The notes below the pieces were generated by a model. That model did not search any database. It saw only the letters and a list, made by a program, of their open reading frames with translations, and was not told the DNA's origin. From Methanosarcina sp. (GTDB lineage: Archaea; Halobacteriota; Methanosarcinia; Methanosarcinales; Methanosarcinaceae): a stretch of DNA of 64,000 nt. Each line of letters opens with the position of its first letter. Position 1 is the first letter of the stretch. Below, piece by piece: positions 40,912 to 49,249 of this stretch. A program made the translations under genes and the position numbers. The stretch covers positions 1-64,000 of the forward strand of contig NZ_JAQUVZ010000002.1 of assembly GCF_028693135.1 (NCBI RefSeq). Reading direction: 5' to 3'.

Positions 40912-43900
40912 TCAGGCTACGGCTTCATAGACGCTGTGGTTATCACCAGCATAAGAATCATAGATGTGCTGGAAAACGGTATTGCATTTCTCTTCATAAG
41001 CTATTACCCCGTATGAGTCGGGCAACCCTCTATCCAGTTCATCTTCGATTTCTTTTTTGACTGCGGCGATTGCCTGCTGCTTTTTTCGCCAATCCAGAAC
41101 CAGCTTTTCAGCTTTTAACGTGGCAAGCAGTTCTTTTGCAACTTTCCTTACCTGGCTCTTCTCTTTTTCGTTCAGATCAGGTTTTTTAAGTTTATCGAAA
41201 AGGGAGAGTTCTTCCTCACTCAAACTTTCTATGATTGCCCTTTCATCCTCTTGTTTTAACTCTTTTGCAAATTCGATCAATTCTTTATAGTGATAATCTA
41301 CATTTGCAGAACCTGAATTATACGCCTCTATAAGCGTTTCGAATTTCTTCTGGTAGTCAAGACGACTGCTATTTAGTCGAACCATTTCTTTTAATTTGTA
41401 AGAGATCAGGTTTTTCAACCACTCAAACTCGGTGTTCTTATGCTGCTGGTCGAACCTGTCTGCCAGAGTATCGAAGTCGATATCTTTAAGGGCAAATATT
41501 CTGCCTTTTTTTGACTCCTCGATAATGTATTCTTTAGATTCGATCGATTTATCAAGGACTCTCTGGATACTGTCCCTTATTTTTGAGATATCAACTTCAG
41601 GATCAAGAGAACGAATTTCTTTTACCAGCTCTTCATAAAGAGTTATTTGTGAAAGAAACTCCGAAGTTCGTTTATGGGGAAGTATGGATTTATAAATTTT
41701 TAAGGCAGCTCCAGCTTCGGTTAAAAATTTCTTCTTTGTTGATTCATTTTTAAGAATTGCATCAGTGGCATCTTTTAAGAGCCTTATCTTTTCAAAACCC
41801 GTTTTTGTTTTAAGGATCTTTTTGGAAGCTACAGAGAGCCCGGACAGGAATTTATTTATTTCTTTTATCTTCTGTTCAAGAGTTTCCAGAAGTTCCTCTT
41901 TGGGTTTTATCGGGGCCTCAATTCCGCCTGATTTGGGGGAGGCGTATATTTTCAGGGCATGTTCAAGATTTTCGAATATGCCGACGTAATCAACAATGAA
42001 ACCTCCGGTCTTTTCTCCAAAGACCCTGTTAGCCCTGGCAATTGTTTGCATGAGGCTGTGGCCTCTCATGGGCCTGTCAAGGTAAATCGTTGAAAGTGCA
42101 GGGACATCGAAGCCTTCTCTCCATTTGCTGCATACGAAAACAATTTTAAGGCTGCTCTTTGAGTCCTTGAAAATTTCTTCGAGGTCTTCCTCAATCATTC
42201 TTTTTCTGTGCGGCCTGATATCCAGCTTATTTTCTTCAAACTTCTTTACCTCATTCTGCCCCTGGCTGACAACAACAGCCATGTCTACGCCTTCAAATTC
42301 GGAAATCAGTTTTTCCAGAACTTTAGCTTCCTCACCTTCGGTTGTAGCTTTTTTCCGCTCCTTGAGTTCATTGATATACATGTTCCAGTATTTTTGGACT
42401 TTATCGTACATCTTTACCGTTGTGAGCTTATCGATGGATACGACAAGAGCTTTTCCGGCATAGCCCCGGGTAACATAATGTTCCACAATGTCTTTTGCAA
42501 TCTTTTCCAGGCGGTCTTCCCTTACGATGACATTGTATTCGTTTGCAAACTCTGTGGCAAGTTTGGACTCTTCTTCATCATCAAGGCCGGCTTTTTCAAT
42601 TTCTCCGTAAATATCATCATTGAAATTCTCGTTTTTCAACTGGACTTCAAGCACACGATTTTCATAATAGAGAGGAACAGTTGCCCCGTCTTCTATGGAG
42701 TGCATGAAGTTGTAGATGCTCACATAGTCCCCGAATGTGTCCCTTGTCTTTTCTTCTCCCACTATTAACGGCGTGCCGGTAAAGCCGATGAAACCCGCAT
42801 TCGGGAGAGCATCCTTCATGTTCTGGGCGAGGGTATCATACTGGGTCCTGTGGGCTTCGTCCGCAATTATTATGATGTCATCCCTGTCCGAAAGCAAAGG
42901 ATGTTTTACGCCTTTTTTTGTCCCGAATTTGTGGATCAGAGTGAAAACCAGCCTGTGGTCTTCAGTAAGCAGCTGCTTGAGATGTCCCCCACTTCTGGCC
43001 TGCACGCCTACTTCGCTTATTACGCCTGCGTTCTGGAAGTTCTGGTAGATCTGCTCGTCAAGTTCTTCCCTATCAGTCACGACAACAAAGGTATAGTTGC
43101 CCGGGAATTTCCGCAGGATTTTTTGTGCAAAAAAGATCATGGAATAGCTTTTTCCCGAACCCTGAGTGTGCCAGAAGACTCCTATTTTCCCTTCGTTTTC
43201 TTTGCGTTTCTTGAAGGATTCTATGGCATTGTTGACCCCAAGATACTGATGATTTTTGGAAATGATCTTTACAGGGTGCCCTTCGCTGCTTGAAAAAAGA
43301 GTGAAATTTTCGAGAATATCAAGGAAGCGGCTTTTTTCGCAGCTGCCTGTAATCATTGTGTCCAACAGGGAGTCGCCAGGTTCTTTTTCGTCGCTGACCC
43401 GTTTCCATTCCCCAAAGTGTTCAAACCCACTTGTAATGGTGCCGATTTTTGATTCCCTACCATTGGAAAGGATTATGAAAGCATTGTACCAGAAAAGCTG
43501 AGGAATTGTGTCTTTATAGTCAGTCAGGTTATCGTCATATGCCTCTTTGACCCTTCTGCCAGTAGCTTTTACTTCGATGAAAATCAGAGGAATTCCGTTT
43601 ACAAAACCTAAAAGGTCAGTCCTCCGGGTATGCATCTCTCCTGTAATCCAGAACTGGGATGCTAAAAAGAAGTCATTATTTTTGGGGTTGTCGAAATCAA
43701 TAATTTTAACTGTCTGGTCTTCAATTTCCCCTTTTTCATTCCGGACTTTGACCTTGACCCCGTTTTTGATTAACGAATAAACTTCCTGATTTGCTTTTAC
43801 AGGGCTCAACCTGCTCCTGTCCTTTGCCAGTTCCTCGATTGCCCGCTCTTCAGCTTCACCGCAAATGTCAGGATTAAGCTTTTTGATTGCCTCACTGAGC

Positions 43901-44160
43901 TTCCGGAGAAGCAGCACTTCTGATTTTGTTTTCCTGCCCAGGGTCCCTTTCCCGTCAAGCCCGAATTTTTCGTGGAAACAGTTCTGATGAAGGTATCCCA
44001 GTTTTTCGAATTCCAGAATTGCGGACTTTTCTACGAGAGAGTCTTCACTGTAATCGGAATCTGTTTCAGAATATTCTTCTGGAATTGTGATCTGGTCTGC
44101 TAGAGTAACTTTTTGCATCCTATCATCTTTTTTTCCAGCTCCGTTTCGGGCAAGTTCCAC
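40912..44160 (-). CDS. hsdR: Type I restriction enzyme subunit R (HsdR)
   Basis: 1082 residues. The N-terminal PD-(D/E)XK nuclease includes TRRTDLLGFVNGIPLIFIEVKATG (about 178-202). Helicase domains have Walker A HTQGSGKSYSM near 330, DEAH box IIADEAHRTQYD near 433, FTGTPLI near 458 and motif VI QTIARANRVFGEKTGG. The C-terminal helical part mediates binding to the HsdM/HsdS core. It translocates DNA and cleaves at a distance from unmethylated sites. ATG start. It is the last gene of the minus-strand hsd operon, after a 202-bp gap with atgaa-rich repeats (about 44265-44320), so separate regulation is possible. Confidence 0.97.
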   Translation of the reverse strand: MELARNGAGKKDDRMQKVTLADQITIPEEYSETDSDYSEDSLVEKSAILEFEKLGYLHQNCFHEKFGLDGKGTLGRKTKSEVLLLRKLSEAIKKLNPDICGEAEERAIEELAKDRSRLSPVKANQEVYSLIKNGVKVKVRNEKGEIEDQTVKIIDFDNPKNNDFFLASQFWITGEMHTRRTDLLGFVNGIPLIFIEVKATGRRVKEAYDDNLTDYKDTIPQLFWYNAFIILSNGRESKIGTITSGFEHFGEWKRVSDEKEPGDSLLDTMITGSCEKSRFLDILENFTLFSSSEGHPVKIISKNHQYLGVNNAIESFKKRKENEGKIGVFWHTQGSGKSYSMIFFAQKILRKFPGNYTFVVVTDREELDEQIYQNFQNAGVISEVGVQARSGGHLKQLLTEDHRLVFTLIHKFGTKKGVKHPLLSDRDDIIIIADEAHRTQYDTLAQNMKDALPNAGFIGFTGTPLIVGEEKTRDTFGDYVSIYNFMHSIEDGATVPLYYENRVLEVQLKNENFNDDIYGEIEKAGLDDEEESKLATEFANEYNVIVREDRLEKIAKDIVEHYVTRGYAGKALVVSIDKLTTVKMYDKVQKYWNMYINELKERKKATTEGEEAKVLEKLISEFEGVDMAVVVSQGQNEVKKFEENKLDIRPHRKRMIEEDLEEIFKDSKSSLKIVFVCSKWREGFDVPALSTIYLDRPMRGHSLMQTIARANRVFGEKTGGFIVDYVGIFENLEHALKIYASPKSGGIEAPIKPKEELLETLEQKIKEINKFLSGLSVASKKILKTKTGFEKIRLLKDATDAILKNESTKKKFLTEAGAALKIYKSILPHKRTSEFLSQITLYEELVKEIRSLDPEVDISKIRDSIQRVLDKSIESKEYIIEESKKGRIFALKDIDFDTLADRFDQQHKNTEFEWLKNLISYKLKEMVRLNSSRLDYQKKFETLIEAYNSGSANVDYHYKELIEFAKELKQEDERAIIESLSEEELSLFDKLKKPDLNEKEKSQVRKVAKELLATLKAEKLVLDWRKKQQAIAAVKKEIEDELDRGLPDSYGVIAYEEKCNTVFQHIYDSYAGDNHSVYEAVA

Positions 44161-44362
44161 GCTGGAGAGTATATATTAAAAAATATATTCAAGTCTGTTA
44201 TCATCCTTTAGATTACTCTCTTATTTAAATTATATTGATTTGAGGTTTCAAATCTAAAAAAAGTATAAGCCTGAGCATGAAAAATGAAGGATGATGGATG
44301 AAAAATGAAGAATGAAGCATAAAATGTCAAACCAGAAGCAGGACAAAAGGGGAAGAAAGATC

Positions 44363-44986
44363 TCAGTTGTCCTGTGATTCTTCTTCAAAAAAGTTATCAT
44401 CCGGATTAGATATATCATCAACCAGATTAGATATATAATCCCGTAAATTGTCTCCAAGCCCATAAGGACTATCTTCCGAATCCTGATATATTTTCAGAAG
44501 CCTTTCTCTGAAGTAAGGGTAAAGTTTTTGCCCGTCTTCAGTCCTTATCAGCTCACAAAACTTTTTCATCATATCAGATCCACCAATAAGAGATGCTTCG
44601 TCAATGCCTGAGAACTCGTGGAGATACTTCATCACGTTTTCTACAAGGGTAAGGGCCAGGTCCATCGTCCCCTTAATATCTCCGGAAGCCTCAGAATAAT
44701 CATTGACAGCTTTTTTTGCCACCGAATAACGAGGCTGACTAGCTGCTCCGCGTGGATGATAGTAAACATTTATGACTTTTTTTCGGTAAGCTTCCAGAAT
44801 ATTGCTGCCTTCTTCTACATTCGCATACCTGGCAGTGACATACCGACGGTTGTCAGCCGAATGTTTGTACAGATCGTGGAGCAAGTTAATGAGTTCCTTC
44901 TGATCTGCTTCTTGAAACAATTTCTTCAATTCAGACCATTTTAAAGTTGCTTCATCTGCCATGATTTCACCAGAATCCGTCTTCAT
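44363..44986 (-). CDS. DUF6155-like protein, paralogue 3 (hsd operon)
   Basis: 207 residues; third of three tandem homologues. Shared frame: LKWSELKKLFQEADQKELINLLHDLY (helix 1-2), a YSVAKKAVNDYSEASGDIKGTMDL core near 85-110 and YFRERLLKIYQDSED near 160. This is the layout of DUF6155, a small all-helical family of unknown function. It is the most diverged copy, with the FFPEKG segment replaced by YYHPRGA. An acidic tail (DDNFFEEESQDN) may bind a basic partner. It overlaps paralogue 2 by 4 bp, and the ATG at 44959 (MADEATL) is an alternative start. Confidence 0.75.
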   Translation of the reverse strand: MKTDSGEIMADEATLKWSELKKLFQEADQKELINLLHDLYKHSADNRRYVTARYANVEEGSNILEAYRKKVINVYYHPRGAASQPRYSVAKKAVNDYSEASGDIKGTMDLALTLVENVMKYLHEFSGIDEASLIGGSDMMKKFCELIRTEDGQKLYPYFRERLLKIYQDSEDSPYGLGDNLRDYISNLVDDISNPDDNFFEEESQDN

Positions 44987-45558
44987 TGCTTGTGTCCTTC
45001 AAAAAACTCTTCAATATCTGCTAAGAGAACGCAAATTGCTTCCTCAAAACCCCATCCGATGTATTCCAGGTCCGTGCCAACCTTAAGCAGCCGTTCCCTG
45101 AAAAGAGGATAATATTTATGTCCTTCCTCAGTTTTTAATTGTTCACAAAGCCTATCCAGCATCCCTTCGATACTGTCATAGAACTCATCGTCTATAACTC
45201 CAAAAATTTTGGCAAATTGGACCCCTCCTTCAACATATGTAAGCATCAGGTCCAGTGTCCCCACAAAGTCTCCCGAAGCATTTGAATAATCACTGATAGC
45301 TCTTTCCGCTGCAGAGTAACGGATTTCTTCCAGCCCCTTTTCAGGAAGGAACTCTTCTTTTATGATTTTCCGGTACTTCTCCAGCATCTTACCCATTTTC
45401 TTCTTCACCCTCTCTCCCAGGTATCTGGAATTTATGAGCATACGGTCTCCAACCGAATGTGTGTACAGTTCATGAACAAGGTCAATTAGTTCCCTTTTCT
45501 CAGCCTTCTGCAGGATTTTCTCCACTTCTGTCCACTTTTCGGAATCTTCTTTTTCCAT
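44983..45558 (-). CDS. DUF6155-like protein, paralogue 2 (hsd operon)
   Basis: 191 residues, predicted wholly helical and acidic. Conserved positions with its neighbours: KWTEVEKILQKAEKRELIDL, EEFLPEKGLEEIRYSAAERAI near 70-90, SGDFVGTLDLMLTYVEGGVQ near 98, DDEFYDSIEGML and YPLFRERLLKV. ATG start. It lies 20 bp after paralogue 1 and overlaps paralogue 3, so all three are translated from one message with hsdM and hsdS. No nuclease, ATPase or DNA-binding motif is seen. A specificity, assembly or regulatory role in restriction is only inferred from position. Confidence 0.78.
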   Translation of the reverse strand: MEKEDSEKWTEVEKILQKAEKRELIDLVHELYTHSVGDRMLINSRYLGERVKKKMGKMLEKYRKIIKEEFLPEKGLEEIRYSAAERAISDYSNASGDFVGTLDLMLTYVEGGVQFAKIFGVIDDEFYDSIEGMLDRLCEQLKTEEGHKYYPLFRERLLKVGTDLEYIGWGFEEAICVLLADIEEFFEGHKQ

Positions 45559-45578
45559 GAAAAATCACCTGAATTTTG

Positions 45579-46151
45579 TTATGAATCCTTCTGCTCTTCC
45601 TCAAAAAAATCTTCAATCTTGGTAATGAGGATATCATTCGCATCCCCGAACCCCCAGGCGATCTCTTCCGAATCCTCGCGGACTTTAAGGAGCCTCTCCC
45701 CGAACCGCGGATAAAGTGGTTTGCCTTCAGGGGTTTTTAACAGGGTGCAAAACTGCTCGAGCATTTCATAAATTTTATCGTAGAACTCTTCATCTATGTC
45801 CCCATATTCATTTGTATATTTCACCCCATTTTCCACATAAGTAAGCATCAGCTCCATTTTCCCTTCAAAATCCCCTGAAGCTTCCGAATACTCACTAATC
45901 GCCCCTTCCGCAACAGAATAACGAAGTTCTCCAAACCCTTTTTCCGGGAAAAACTCATTTACAACTATCTCCCTGTACTCTTCCAGAACTTTAGGAGCCT
46001 CTTCCGTATGAATAAACCGGGCAAGTAAATACCTCCGATTGTCCTCAGAATATCTGTAAAGTTCCTGAATGACGTTTAAGAGCTCTTTCTTATCTGATTT
46101 CTGAAGTGCCTTTTTCAGGTCGGACCATTTTAAATCTGAATCTTTTTTCAT
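45579..46151 (-). CDS. DUF6155-like protein, paralogue 1 (hsd operon)
   Basis: 190 residues, first of the triplet and closest to the DUF6155 consensus. Features: LKWSDLKKALQKSDKKELLNV, NEFFPEKGFGELRYSVAEGAI (about 68-88), SGDFEGKMELMLTYVENGVKY, GDIDEEFYDKIYEMLEQF and RERLLKV-like GERLLKV, then an acidic end. The ATG lies 22 bp after the hsdS stop. The family is best known from bacteria; three consecutive diverged copies suggest that they form a hetero-oligomer or recognise different partners. Confidence 0.8.
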   Translation of the reverse strand: MKKDSDLKWSDLKKALQKSDKKELLNVIQELYRYSEDNRRYLLARFIHTEEAPKVLEEYREIVVNEFFPEKGFGELRYSVAEGAISEYSEASGDFEGKMELMLTYVENGVKYTNEYGDIDEEFYDKIYEMLEQFCTLLKTPEGKPLYPRFGERLLKVREDSEEIAWGFGDANDILITKIEDFFEEEQKDS

Positions 46152-46173: not shown

Positions 46174-47379
46174 TTACGATTCCTGAAACTCGTTTCTTAT
46201 GTGAATATCCAGATCAGAAACATCTATTTCCCCTGAGATAAGTTTGGGGAGGAGGAGGTCGCGGGTTTTCTCCAACTTTCCTCTCTGTTTCTTCAGAATC
46301 TCAATCTGTTGACACATAGGAGTAACATACTTCTCAAAAAGCTTCAATATAGGTTCTGGTGGACGCAATACCTCTATACGGTGAACATCATTTCGATTCA
46401 ATGTTGGAACCGCTACGCCTCCATTGTATTGTTCAAGTTGAAGGCTGGACAGAAGATGAACTGAATAAATTGGTCCCACATTCTTGAACTCCTTGACCCA
46501 AAGAGTTGTATTAAGAGGCCAGAAATCTTCTGGAACATATAATACAGTTCCAAGTGATCCACTTCTACCGGTAACAACTCCTGGCCCTTTTACTTTTGCC
46601 ACATCGTGATATCCATTGATACCGGTGGAGGCGTAAATTGGGTATGTTCCATCTTTACGCATCTTTACTGGGAGATCAAAACCTCTCTGCAAAGTCAAAA
46701 CTTCACCTAGTGATATCTTTTCCCATCCTTCCGGAACATCATCTATAATTTTTACATTTTCATGCCCCGGAAACTTGAACTTAACGAACCATTCTTCATA
46801 AACCAGCTTTGCCATCTGTTCAAGGATTTCTATTCGCCGGGTGTTGTTTTCGAGAAGGTCATCGTAGCTGGAGAGGATGGAGGCGATTTTTTGTTGGGTC
46901 TCTACAGGTGGAAGGCGAAACTGATACGCTTGTATTTGTGGACCGCTTATGTGAGGAATATTTATTCCAGTAATTACTGACTTCACATAATTTGTGAAGT
47001 TAATATCAGATATGATATACCTAATAAAATTTGTTAGGAGCCCATTTTTCCCACGTAGACGTGACACTCTTTGAACAAGTAAGCAAGGTAAATCACTCTC
47101 ATTTATATAAGCCCATTTTAATCCCGCTTCAATCCAAGGACGATCCATTGCCAAAACAACATCATTTAATTCAAGAGAATACTTTGAAAATTGTTTTATC
47201 TCTGAAGAATTCCATCTCTTACAATTGTTCCATCTTAATGTTCCTTGAACTATATTGTCTCCACGTAACAGACGTATTTCATTTGGATCATCGACATACT
47301 TTGCGCTTTTAAAGGGAAATCCAGTTAAAAGATCTATATAGCTCCCAAATGAGACTTCTGGCCAAGAATTATTTTTCAC
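46174..47379 (-). CDS. hsdS: Type I restriction enzyme specificity subunit (HsdS)
   Basis: 401 residues with the standard two-half organisation. Target recognition domain 1 (about 1-150) is followed by the first conserved coiled coil [21 protein letters not shown]...[14 protein letters not shown]. Target recognition domain 2 (about 220-345, [19 protein letters not shown]) is followed by the second coil ([27 protein letters not shown]). It selects the bipartite target for methylation and cleavage; the target cannot be read from sequence alone. It overlaps hsdM by 11 bp. Confidence 0.96.
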
Positions 47380-48904
47380 TATGAATCACCCCCAAAAGTT
47401 TTGCTACTTTCTCTGAAATCTGTTCTTCCAGCTCCTTCGCTTCAAGATTCAGCCCTTCCAGCTCCTCATTTAACTCTTCGAGTCTCTCGAGAAAATCAAA
47501 ATCCTCTTCAACTGCCTCGGCAACCCCAACATATCTTCCAGGATTTAGAGAATATCCCTGCTCTCTTACCTCATCAAGAGTTGCAACCTTACACAAGCCC
47601 TTGACGTCCTCATAAGGTTCGCTTCCTTCTTCTTCGCGGTAGCTCCTGACGATTCCTGCGATCTTCTCGATCTGCTCGGCGGTAAATTCCCTGTGCGCCC
47701 TGTCAACCTGCGTGAAAATCTCCCGCGCGTCAATGAAGAGAATCTTATCTTTTCGGACGTTGACGGCTTTGCCTTTGTCCAGGAACCAGAGAGCGCAGGG
47801 GAGGGTGACGGTGTAGAAAAAGTTTGAGCCGATCGAAACCATTACGTCAACCGCGCTACTTTCAATAAGCTGCATTCTAATTTCGGCTTCTGAGCCTCTG
47901 GCATCCGAGGCGGAGTTTGCCATCACGAAACCGGCTCTGCCTTTTTCGTTTAAGGCTGACCAGAAGTGCTGGATCCAGAGGTAGTTTGCGTTATCATTCG
48001 ACGGGGTGCCGAGAGGGAGTCTTTTGTCGCCTTTGACCTTTTCAAAATCGACTTTTTTTACGTTGAATGGGGGATTTGCCATTACGAAATCGAAAGCATC
48101 AACCGAATTGTGGATGTTTTCGTAATAGGTGTTGCCTTCTTTAATGTCCCCTGAGAGGCCGTGGACTGCAAGGTTCATTTTGCAGAGCCGGACTGTATCT
48201 GCTACCTTTTCCTGGCCGTAGACAGAGATTTCGGAACTGGCTTTTCGGTGGTGATTTTCCACGAAATGAGCACTCTGGACGAACATGCCGCCTGACCCGC
48301 AGGCAGGGTCAAGGATTTTTCCGTGGTAAGGCTCGATGATTTCTACAATCAGTTTGACAAGGGACGTGGGGGTAAAGAATTCCCCGCCTTTCTGGCCTTC
48401 TGCCATCGCGAATTTGCCGAGGAAATACTCGTAGATCTTGCCGAAAGCATCTCCCTGGATGTCCGTGGGCAGTTTGAACGCCTTTAAAAGGGCAATGAGC
48501 AGGTCATTTTCAAAAAATGTATAGGTTTTTGGCAGGATGTCGGTCAGTTCCGGATTTTCGGCTTCAATTGCTTCCATTGCCTCATTGACAGCTTTTCCTG
48601 TGTTTTCGCTTTCCGGCAGGTTAAGTAAATAGGTGTATCTGGCTTTTTCCGGAAGGTAGAGGACTCCCTTTGCCTGAAAATCCACTTTTGAGCCTTCGTT
48701 TTTCCTTCTCCGGCTGGATGAGTTGTTTTCCAGCTCACTATTTAGTTCCTGTTCTGCCTGAGAGAATTTGAACTCAGCATACCTTAGAAAAATTAATCCG
48801 AGTACAGGGACGGAATATTCCGAGGCTTTCAAACCGGAATTTGCCCGAAGTTCGTTAGCTACGCCCCATAACCTATTTTCAGTATCGTTGTTGTTGCCTG
48901 CCAT
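47369..48904 (-). CDS. hsdM: Type I DNA methyltransferase subunit (HsdM)
   Basis: 511 residues. N-terminal helical domain ([21 protein letters not shown]), AdoMet-binding motif [17 protein letters not shown] near 200, and catalytic NPPF ([11 protein letters not shown]) near 280, which marks an N6-adenine methyltransferase. [15 protein letters not shown] just before motif I is typical. A C-terminal coiled coil binds HsdS. ATG 48904 is preferred over GTG 48910, as GATGAT lies 6 nt upstream of it. It is the first gene of the operon, divergent from pepD. Confidence 0.97.
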
Positions 48905-49249
48905 TTTCACATCATCTTTTGAACTTGTTTTTACTTTTCATCACTGAATTAACATATATAAGTTACTAAAACGCCGAAAAAGAAGAGGCAAGTATCGAAA
49001 ATTCAATTCGGGAAATCCGGGAAAAGACCGGGCTTTGGGCTCAACTTGAGAGGTTCTAAAAAAGTGAAATTTAGCCAATGGTTCTGAAAACTTTCCTGAG
49101 GTTCATGGAACATGCCAATCAGCGGTCCGCGCAGCACAACTTATTAATCTTCTTTTTTGGTTTTACGTATAACATAATTAAATGATATATGAGTGATTTT
49201 AATACGGTTTACATCTACTAATCTTCATAAAACCTGAGTTGATCCCCCC
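48905..49249. other. Divergent promoter region of hsdM and pepD
   Basis: 345 bp without genes. AT-rich blocks near 48940-48965 and 49165-49215 (aacataattaaatgatatat) are suitable places for TATA-type promoters of the two divergent genes. Confidence 0.4.

Follow-up and report, generated by a model that had tools for sequence, protein, structure and literature searches.

A separable array of DUF6155 genes between hsdS and hsdR in Methanosarcina, a candidate non-enzymatic accessory of type I restriction

What are three related genes doing inside a type I restriction-modification operon? The window analysed here, a stretch of 64,000 nucleotides from a Methanosarcina contig, contains such an operon with intact hsdM, hsdS and hsdR, as recognized by Pfam, PADLOC and NCBIfam. 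All genes lie on the minus strand, in the order hsdM-hsdS-D1-D2-D3-hsdR. The methylase subunit gene hsdM (47369-48910; N6_Mtase 4e-91, HsdM_N) is the first of an hsdM-hsdS-D1-D2-D3 unit, followed by the specificity subunit gene hsdS (46174-47379; Methylase_S 4e-25, PADLOC Specificity_I 5e-72), and the motor/nuclease subunit gene hsdR (40912-44160, alternative ATG start at 44118; HSDR_N, SWI2_SNF2 and T1RH-like_C, TIGR00348 at 500 bits) closes the row. Between hsdS and hsdR stand D1 (45579-46151, 190 aa), D2 (44983-45558, 191 aa) and D3 (44363-44986, 207 aa, alternative ATG at 44962). The preliminary description of this DNA had reported a triplet of these lengths after hsdS, with junctions of 22 bp (hsdS-D1), 20 bp (D1-D2) and -4 bp (D2-D3), and its coordinates and gaps are exact.

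The triplet had been called DUF6155-like. For D1 this stands on the Pfam score itself, 36 bits against PF19652 (DUF6155), whose curated cut-off is 27 bits; D3 stays below the cut-off with 21.1 bits and Pfam returns no DUF6155 match for D2, the two being assigned to the family through their homology to D1 (D2 is 50% identical to it, E 2e-62). Identity among the paralogues is 50% for D1-D2, 45% for D1-D3 and 38.5% for D2-D3 (E 1e-43 to 1e-62), and tblastn with D1 and with D3 finds DUF6155 genes of bacteria. The common sequence layout attributed to the three proteins is partly borne out: the K-W, RYS-A, SGD and F-x-ERLLK elements appear in the alignment, but only D1 and D2 have the PEKG core, for which D3 has PRGA, and only D2 and D3 have the FRERLLK end, which in D1 reads FGERLLK. 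The Pfam family has no assigned function, and our literature search found no paper that mentions DUF6155.

Orthologues of the D genes give dN/dS values of 0.1-0.3, by which measure D1, D2 and D3 are certainly real coding genes under constraint. The corresponding range for hsdM and hsdR is 0.05-0.14, and in most comparisons the D value is about two to three times theirs. Two putative promoters, both on the minus strand, bear on how these genes are transcribed. A block upstream of hsdR (44222-44241; AAATCAATATxATTTAAATA) is near-invariant in eight loci, including that of genome G089, which has no D gene; because it contains the archaeal TATA-like box TTTAAATA, it is probably a separate hsdR promoter. 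The TATA-like element CTTATATATG upstream of hsdM (48953-48966), conserved in most other loci aligned, that of G077 included, is probably the promoter of the hsdM-S-D unit. Since the putative promoters precede hsdM and hsdR, the D genes of the window are most likely transcribed with hsdM and hsdS.

Does this arrangement recur? A D-profile match is found in 24 of 112 genomes of Methanosarcinaceae. Eight genomes, that of the window included, carry an hsdR at least 81% identical to the window's, and seven of them (G000, G079, G082, G083, G095, G102 and G086, the last being Methanosarcina sp. Ant1) have one to four D genes between hsdS and hsdR; partly degraded loci occur in G075, G077, G078, G094 and G100. 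In a maximum-likelihood tree of 49 proteins, the Methanosarcina/g5 copies form one clade with four classes, each at 99-100% bootstrap (D1 99/99, D2 100/99, D3 100/100, and D4); the three genes of the window fall into the classes after which they are named, D4 is absent from the window, and the placement of the Ant1 middle gene is unsure. Gene order is constant, hsdS-D1-D2-D4-D3-hsdR, with lineage-specific losses: D1, where present, is always first after hsdS, and D3, where present, is always last before hsdR. G082 and G083 hold all four classes (in G083, D3 and the end of D1 are frameshifted), and the other subsets are D1-D2-D3 in the window, D1-(D4-like)-D3 in Ant1, D1-D3 in G102, D1 in G095 and D2-D4-D3 in G009. 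As the four classes are common to different species and keep a fixed order, the duplications are older than the species, which agrees with the earlier view that recent amplification is unlikely.

A second genus of the same family, g11, extends the pattern. Its DUF6155 copies form a very divergent clade, 20-25% identical to D1 and set apart by a fully supported branch 2.2 changes per site long, which occupies the hsdS-hsdR slot in operons that belong to a type I family other than that of the window (identity to the window's genes about 26% for hsdM and about 29% for hsdR). A single copy is present in G044, G050, G057 and G060, a tandem pair in G061 and a disrupted copy in G048. The gap from the D gene to hsdR is about 12 bp. 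In g11 the D gene is closely coupled to hsdR, unlike the probable coupling to hsdM-hsdS in the window. The association of DUF6155 with hsd operons of other genomes, whose absence the preliminary description had named as a refutation of its proposal, therefore recurs in seven of the eight genomes with close hsdR orthologues and in a second genus; judged from sequence, the slot position is common to the DUF6155 genes of two genera, whose type I families are unrelated.

Are the D proteins then a working part of the enzyme beside which they are encoded? Tight operon packing and the conserved order next to hsdS would fit an obligate subunit, or an assembly or anti-self factor, of the window's type I enzyme, and the triplet had indeed been proposed as a functional part of the system, for example in assembly. 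Genome G089 speaks against this proposal. It keeps hsdM (89%), hsdS and hsdR (84%) under purifying selection, with no D gene in the slot or anywhere in the genome. Its hsdS (locus L103, 8246-9574) extends about 15 residues past the usual end, continuing where every other hsdS copy stops or nearly stops, and the only thing left in the gap is the hsdR promoter block; because of this read-through and the remaining block, it is most likely that G089 lost the array by secondary deletion.

The reverse state also exists. In G104, G009 and G077, D genes stand at the same genomic site with hsdMS and hsdR gone from both sides. The D1-D2-D3 array of G104 is intact, G009 has three D genes, one of them with an in-frame TAG, and the array of G077 is decaying, so that orphan retention is not universal. 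These arrays are followed by the same ORF of about 180-200 aa that comes after hsdR in G089, and in G077 the deletion has placed the D array immediately behind the start of hsdM and its putative promoter region. Genus g11 has its own orphans, G062 and G063, each with an intact D gene without flanking hsd genes; in linked g11 genomes, the D gene at this place is preceded by about 6.4 kb and followed by 4.5 kb of hsd genes. The two orphan loci have common junctions and a common upstream leader. On grounds of parsimony, we infer that the orphan state arose by loss of hsd genes and not by their arrival around a resident D gene. The purifying selection between orphans (dN/dS 0.18) counts as suggestive and not as proof, since linked and orphan alleles may recombine, which could maintain the alleles at orphan loci. 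One or more further HsdR genes are present in each of the orphan genomes G104, G009, G062 and G063, so that the D proteins could act in trans on a different type I enzyme. As a separate observation, the in-frame TAG of the G009 D3 gene (L045 11471-12043) lies near residue 160 and may be read through, perhaps as pyrrolysine, for which the family is known.

D genes can thus outlive the enzyme and the enzyme can persist without them, which disfavours a core subunit or assembly factor. Moreover, between genomes, D1 divergence is uncorrelated with the divergence of HsdS, HsdM and HsdR (Spearman 0.02, -0.11 and 0.24, respectively). As the main reading, an obligate role is rejected on account of G089 and the orphan arrays, and in any form we regard it as highly improbable. 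For want of a correlation, co-variation of D1 with HsdS specificity is rejected too.

The hsdS-hsdR slot carries changing cargo, and in type I loci of relatives it holds GmrSD_N genes (L105 5153-7402, L106 8394-10280, L107 8943-11033). Precedents are known in bacteria: a Vibrio type I operon embeds TgvAB, which works alone, Campylobacter has RloF between hsdR and hsdS (PMC11411939), and PrrC is embedded in the EcoprrI type IC operon (PMC3874165, PMC12707154). Like type I-embedded accessory genes of this kind, the D genes recur within hsd operons and are separable from hsd. TgvAB and RloF, of the GmrSD/DUF262 kind, share the place in the operon and the functional separability (PMC11411939), and the genes in L105-L107 are their homologues; they are, however, nucleases, whereas DUF6155 proteins have no nuclease motif, and Pfam finds no GmrSD_N domain in D1-D3. 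PrrC shares with the D genes its position as an accessory within a type I operon, but it is an ATP-dependent tRNase, an anticodon nuclease guarding against anti-restriction; Pfam, NCBIfam and PADLOC detect no ABC-ATPase and anticodon-nuclease domains of the PrrC/RloC type in D1-D3, which instead are arrayed as paralogues. DUF6155 is apparently a new, non-enzymatic cargo of the slot. Among the genes of L105-L107, one is fused to Schlafen AlbA_2 and one carries GmrSD_C and DUF5655. Yet more cargo occupies the slot in another type I locus (L110 12986-15455), where hsdS and hsdR flank a DUF6884 gene and a gene for a TPR protein that weakly matches HEPN.

What kind of protein fills the slot? In the AlphaFold2 predictions, D1 (pLDDT 87.9) consists of nine helices, and D3 (pLDDT 79.5) comes out the same, which supports the all-helical character previously ascribed to these proteins and points to an all-helical repeat as the predicted fold. 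Foldseek gave no match at E < 0.001 for D1 in PDB or BFVD, or for D3 in PDB; its top matches were helical repeats of designed proteins, below which came scaffolds of the 14-3-3, TPR-like and retromer kinds, and a sequence-profile search of PDB returned nothing significant. PADLOC found nothing meaningful in 22 DUF6155 family members, Pfam, PADLOC and NCBIfam detected no effector domain, be it a nuclease, an ATPase or another kind, and conservation across members revealed no cluster of conserved catalytic residues. What is conserved are loops: in 22 diverse members, loops H2-3, H4-5, H6-7 and H8-9 have a mean of 2.15 bits, against 1.47 in the alternate loops, and carry the motifs EFFPxxG, YGDIDE and GWGxxD. 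Because in an alternating helical repeat such loops share one edge, their conservation suggests a binding edge, a reading taken from the predicted fold. The net charge of D1-D3 is -13 to -18, that of relatives +1.7 to -12; strong acidity is therefore a trait of the Methanosarcina copies and not of the DUF6155 family. As net charge is not conserved across the family, a DNA-mimic anti-restriction protein of the Ocr/ArdA kind is unlikely.

The precedent of TgvAB raises the possibility that each D protein is antiviral without any restriction enzyme, with the operon serving only as a vehicle. The GmrSD_N genes in the same slot of related loci, the retention of orphan D genes and the solitary copies on plasmids would fit this. 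Against it stand the helical-repeat fold without catalytic signature and the lack of any effector-domain match, and the repeated coupling to restriction motors would then be mere co-localization. We consider autonomous defence rather unlikely.

Outside Methanosarcinaceae, in genome G346, 18 bp separate a DUF6155 gene from the Eco57I-type restriction-modification methylase gene downstream of it, a partner without an SF2 motor. On plasmids of Azotobacter, Cupriavidus and Massilia, a family member is the direct upstream partner of a TOTE conflict-system primase-helicase (AEP-TOTE, PF22548), which carries a ResIII motor, and in every case overlaps its start by 8 bp; five occurrences of the pair are known from plasmids of these three genera (L063, L065, L115, L116, L117), the Massilia helicase being identified from annotation and arrangement only. 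It is present twice on the Azotobacter and on the Cupriavidus plasmids, and in Azotobacter the copies, though differently surrounded, share the same protein accessions, for which reason the pair appears to behave as a mobile unit. There is no TOTE gene at the window locus, and the common element is the ResIII/SF2 motor only; our literature search on TOTE found nothing. In bacteria, where the survey covered plasmids, most copies of DUF6155 are not beside restriction genes, many being solitary or in unrelated surroundings, and the family may therefore have a wider role. Among the loci examined, the tandem multi-class array is found only in Methanosarcinaceae.

Some of these distant neighbourhoods could hint at a toxin/antitoxin module that stabilizes the locus, since one copy is near a gene with a SocA/Panacea antitoxin domain (L083) and others are near an HTH regulator (L064) or RhuM/Fic (L067). 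Yet nothing in the D proteins resembles the active-site residues of a toxin, the paralogues stand three or four in a row without a partner, and partnerless orphans are intact; we regard such a module as very unlikely. Other recurrent neighbours were noted. RhuM-family genes identified by Pfam occur near DUF6155 in g11 hsd operons (L084 5037-6074) and on a Bacteroides plasmid (L067 6536-7894), and a RhuM-like gene recognized by eye only lies near DUF6155 in a viral-catalogue contig (L094 3588-4592). In two other archaeal families, a protein of about 150 aa with a weak match to the phage-integrase SAM-like N-terminal domain is encoded directly upstream of DUF6155 (L081 8497-8949, L082 9395-9841). 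A viral origin, or a viral counter-defence gene, was rejected: tblastn against phages returned one weak faecal contig, and IMG/VR yielded two loci resembling integrated or mobile elements and, with the archaeal profiles, none.

We hypothesize that the triplet is an embedded, separable, non-enzymatic accessory array whose proteins act in trans by binding either a motor of the HsdR type or a viral protein that inhibits such a motor, a reading to which we give about an even chance. The array comprises four old classes in fixed order, is under purifying selection and is separable from hsd in both directions. The D proteins would be small all-helical binding proteins that act via the edge formed by the EFFPxxG, YGDIDE and GWGxxD loops. 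Their partner, which is less certain, would be this ATP-driven motor or its viral inhibitor, and the D proteins would tune motor activity in trans; the local enzyme could then exist without D, and D could serve the cell's other type I enzymes after loss of the local hsd genes. Repeated placement beside ResIII-type motors (HsdR of two families, TOTE) favours the motor or its inhibitor as partner, which we propose with modest confidence.

Alternatively, the D proteins may be guards or decoys that bind phage anti-restriction proteins and neutralize or report them, the classes covering different inhibitors. The four diverged classes with subsets that differ by lineage and the elevated dN/dS of D genes relative to hsdM and hsdR would suit such a role, which could be exercised in trans for other restriction-modification systems in orphan genomes; the logic of guarding restriction-modification is known for PrrC and PARIS (PMC12707154). 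No cell-killing effector is encoded beside the D genes, however, no anti-restriction partner is known, and their evolutionary speed is modest and purifying, so that we find this explanation unlikely, although less so than a toxin/antitoxin module.

Extending the preferred reading of an accessory array that binds the motor or its inhibitor, DUF6155 could serve quite generally as regulatory partner to ATP-driven DNA motors of the restriction type (HsdR, the TOTE helicase), and in Methanosarcinaceae it could have expanded to the four-class array, each lineage keeping or losing members according to the motors or viral inhibitors that it encounters. This broader view is tentative and somewhat doubtful, if slightly less so than autonomous defence.

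Genes embedded in type I operons have repeatedly proved to be new antiviral or guard systems, as with PrrC and TgvAB, and accessory immunity in archaea is little known. DUF6155 is a new cargo family for this slot, without enzyme signature and present in archaea as an old multi-paralogue array, and the locus gives a family without assigned function a testable context. Natural lines that have lost the D side or the hsd side exist, G089 being a line with hsdMSR and without D. If DUF6155 is indeed a general partner of such motors, it would represent a non-enzymatic layer of control on restriction, of a kind not described before.
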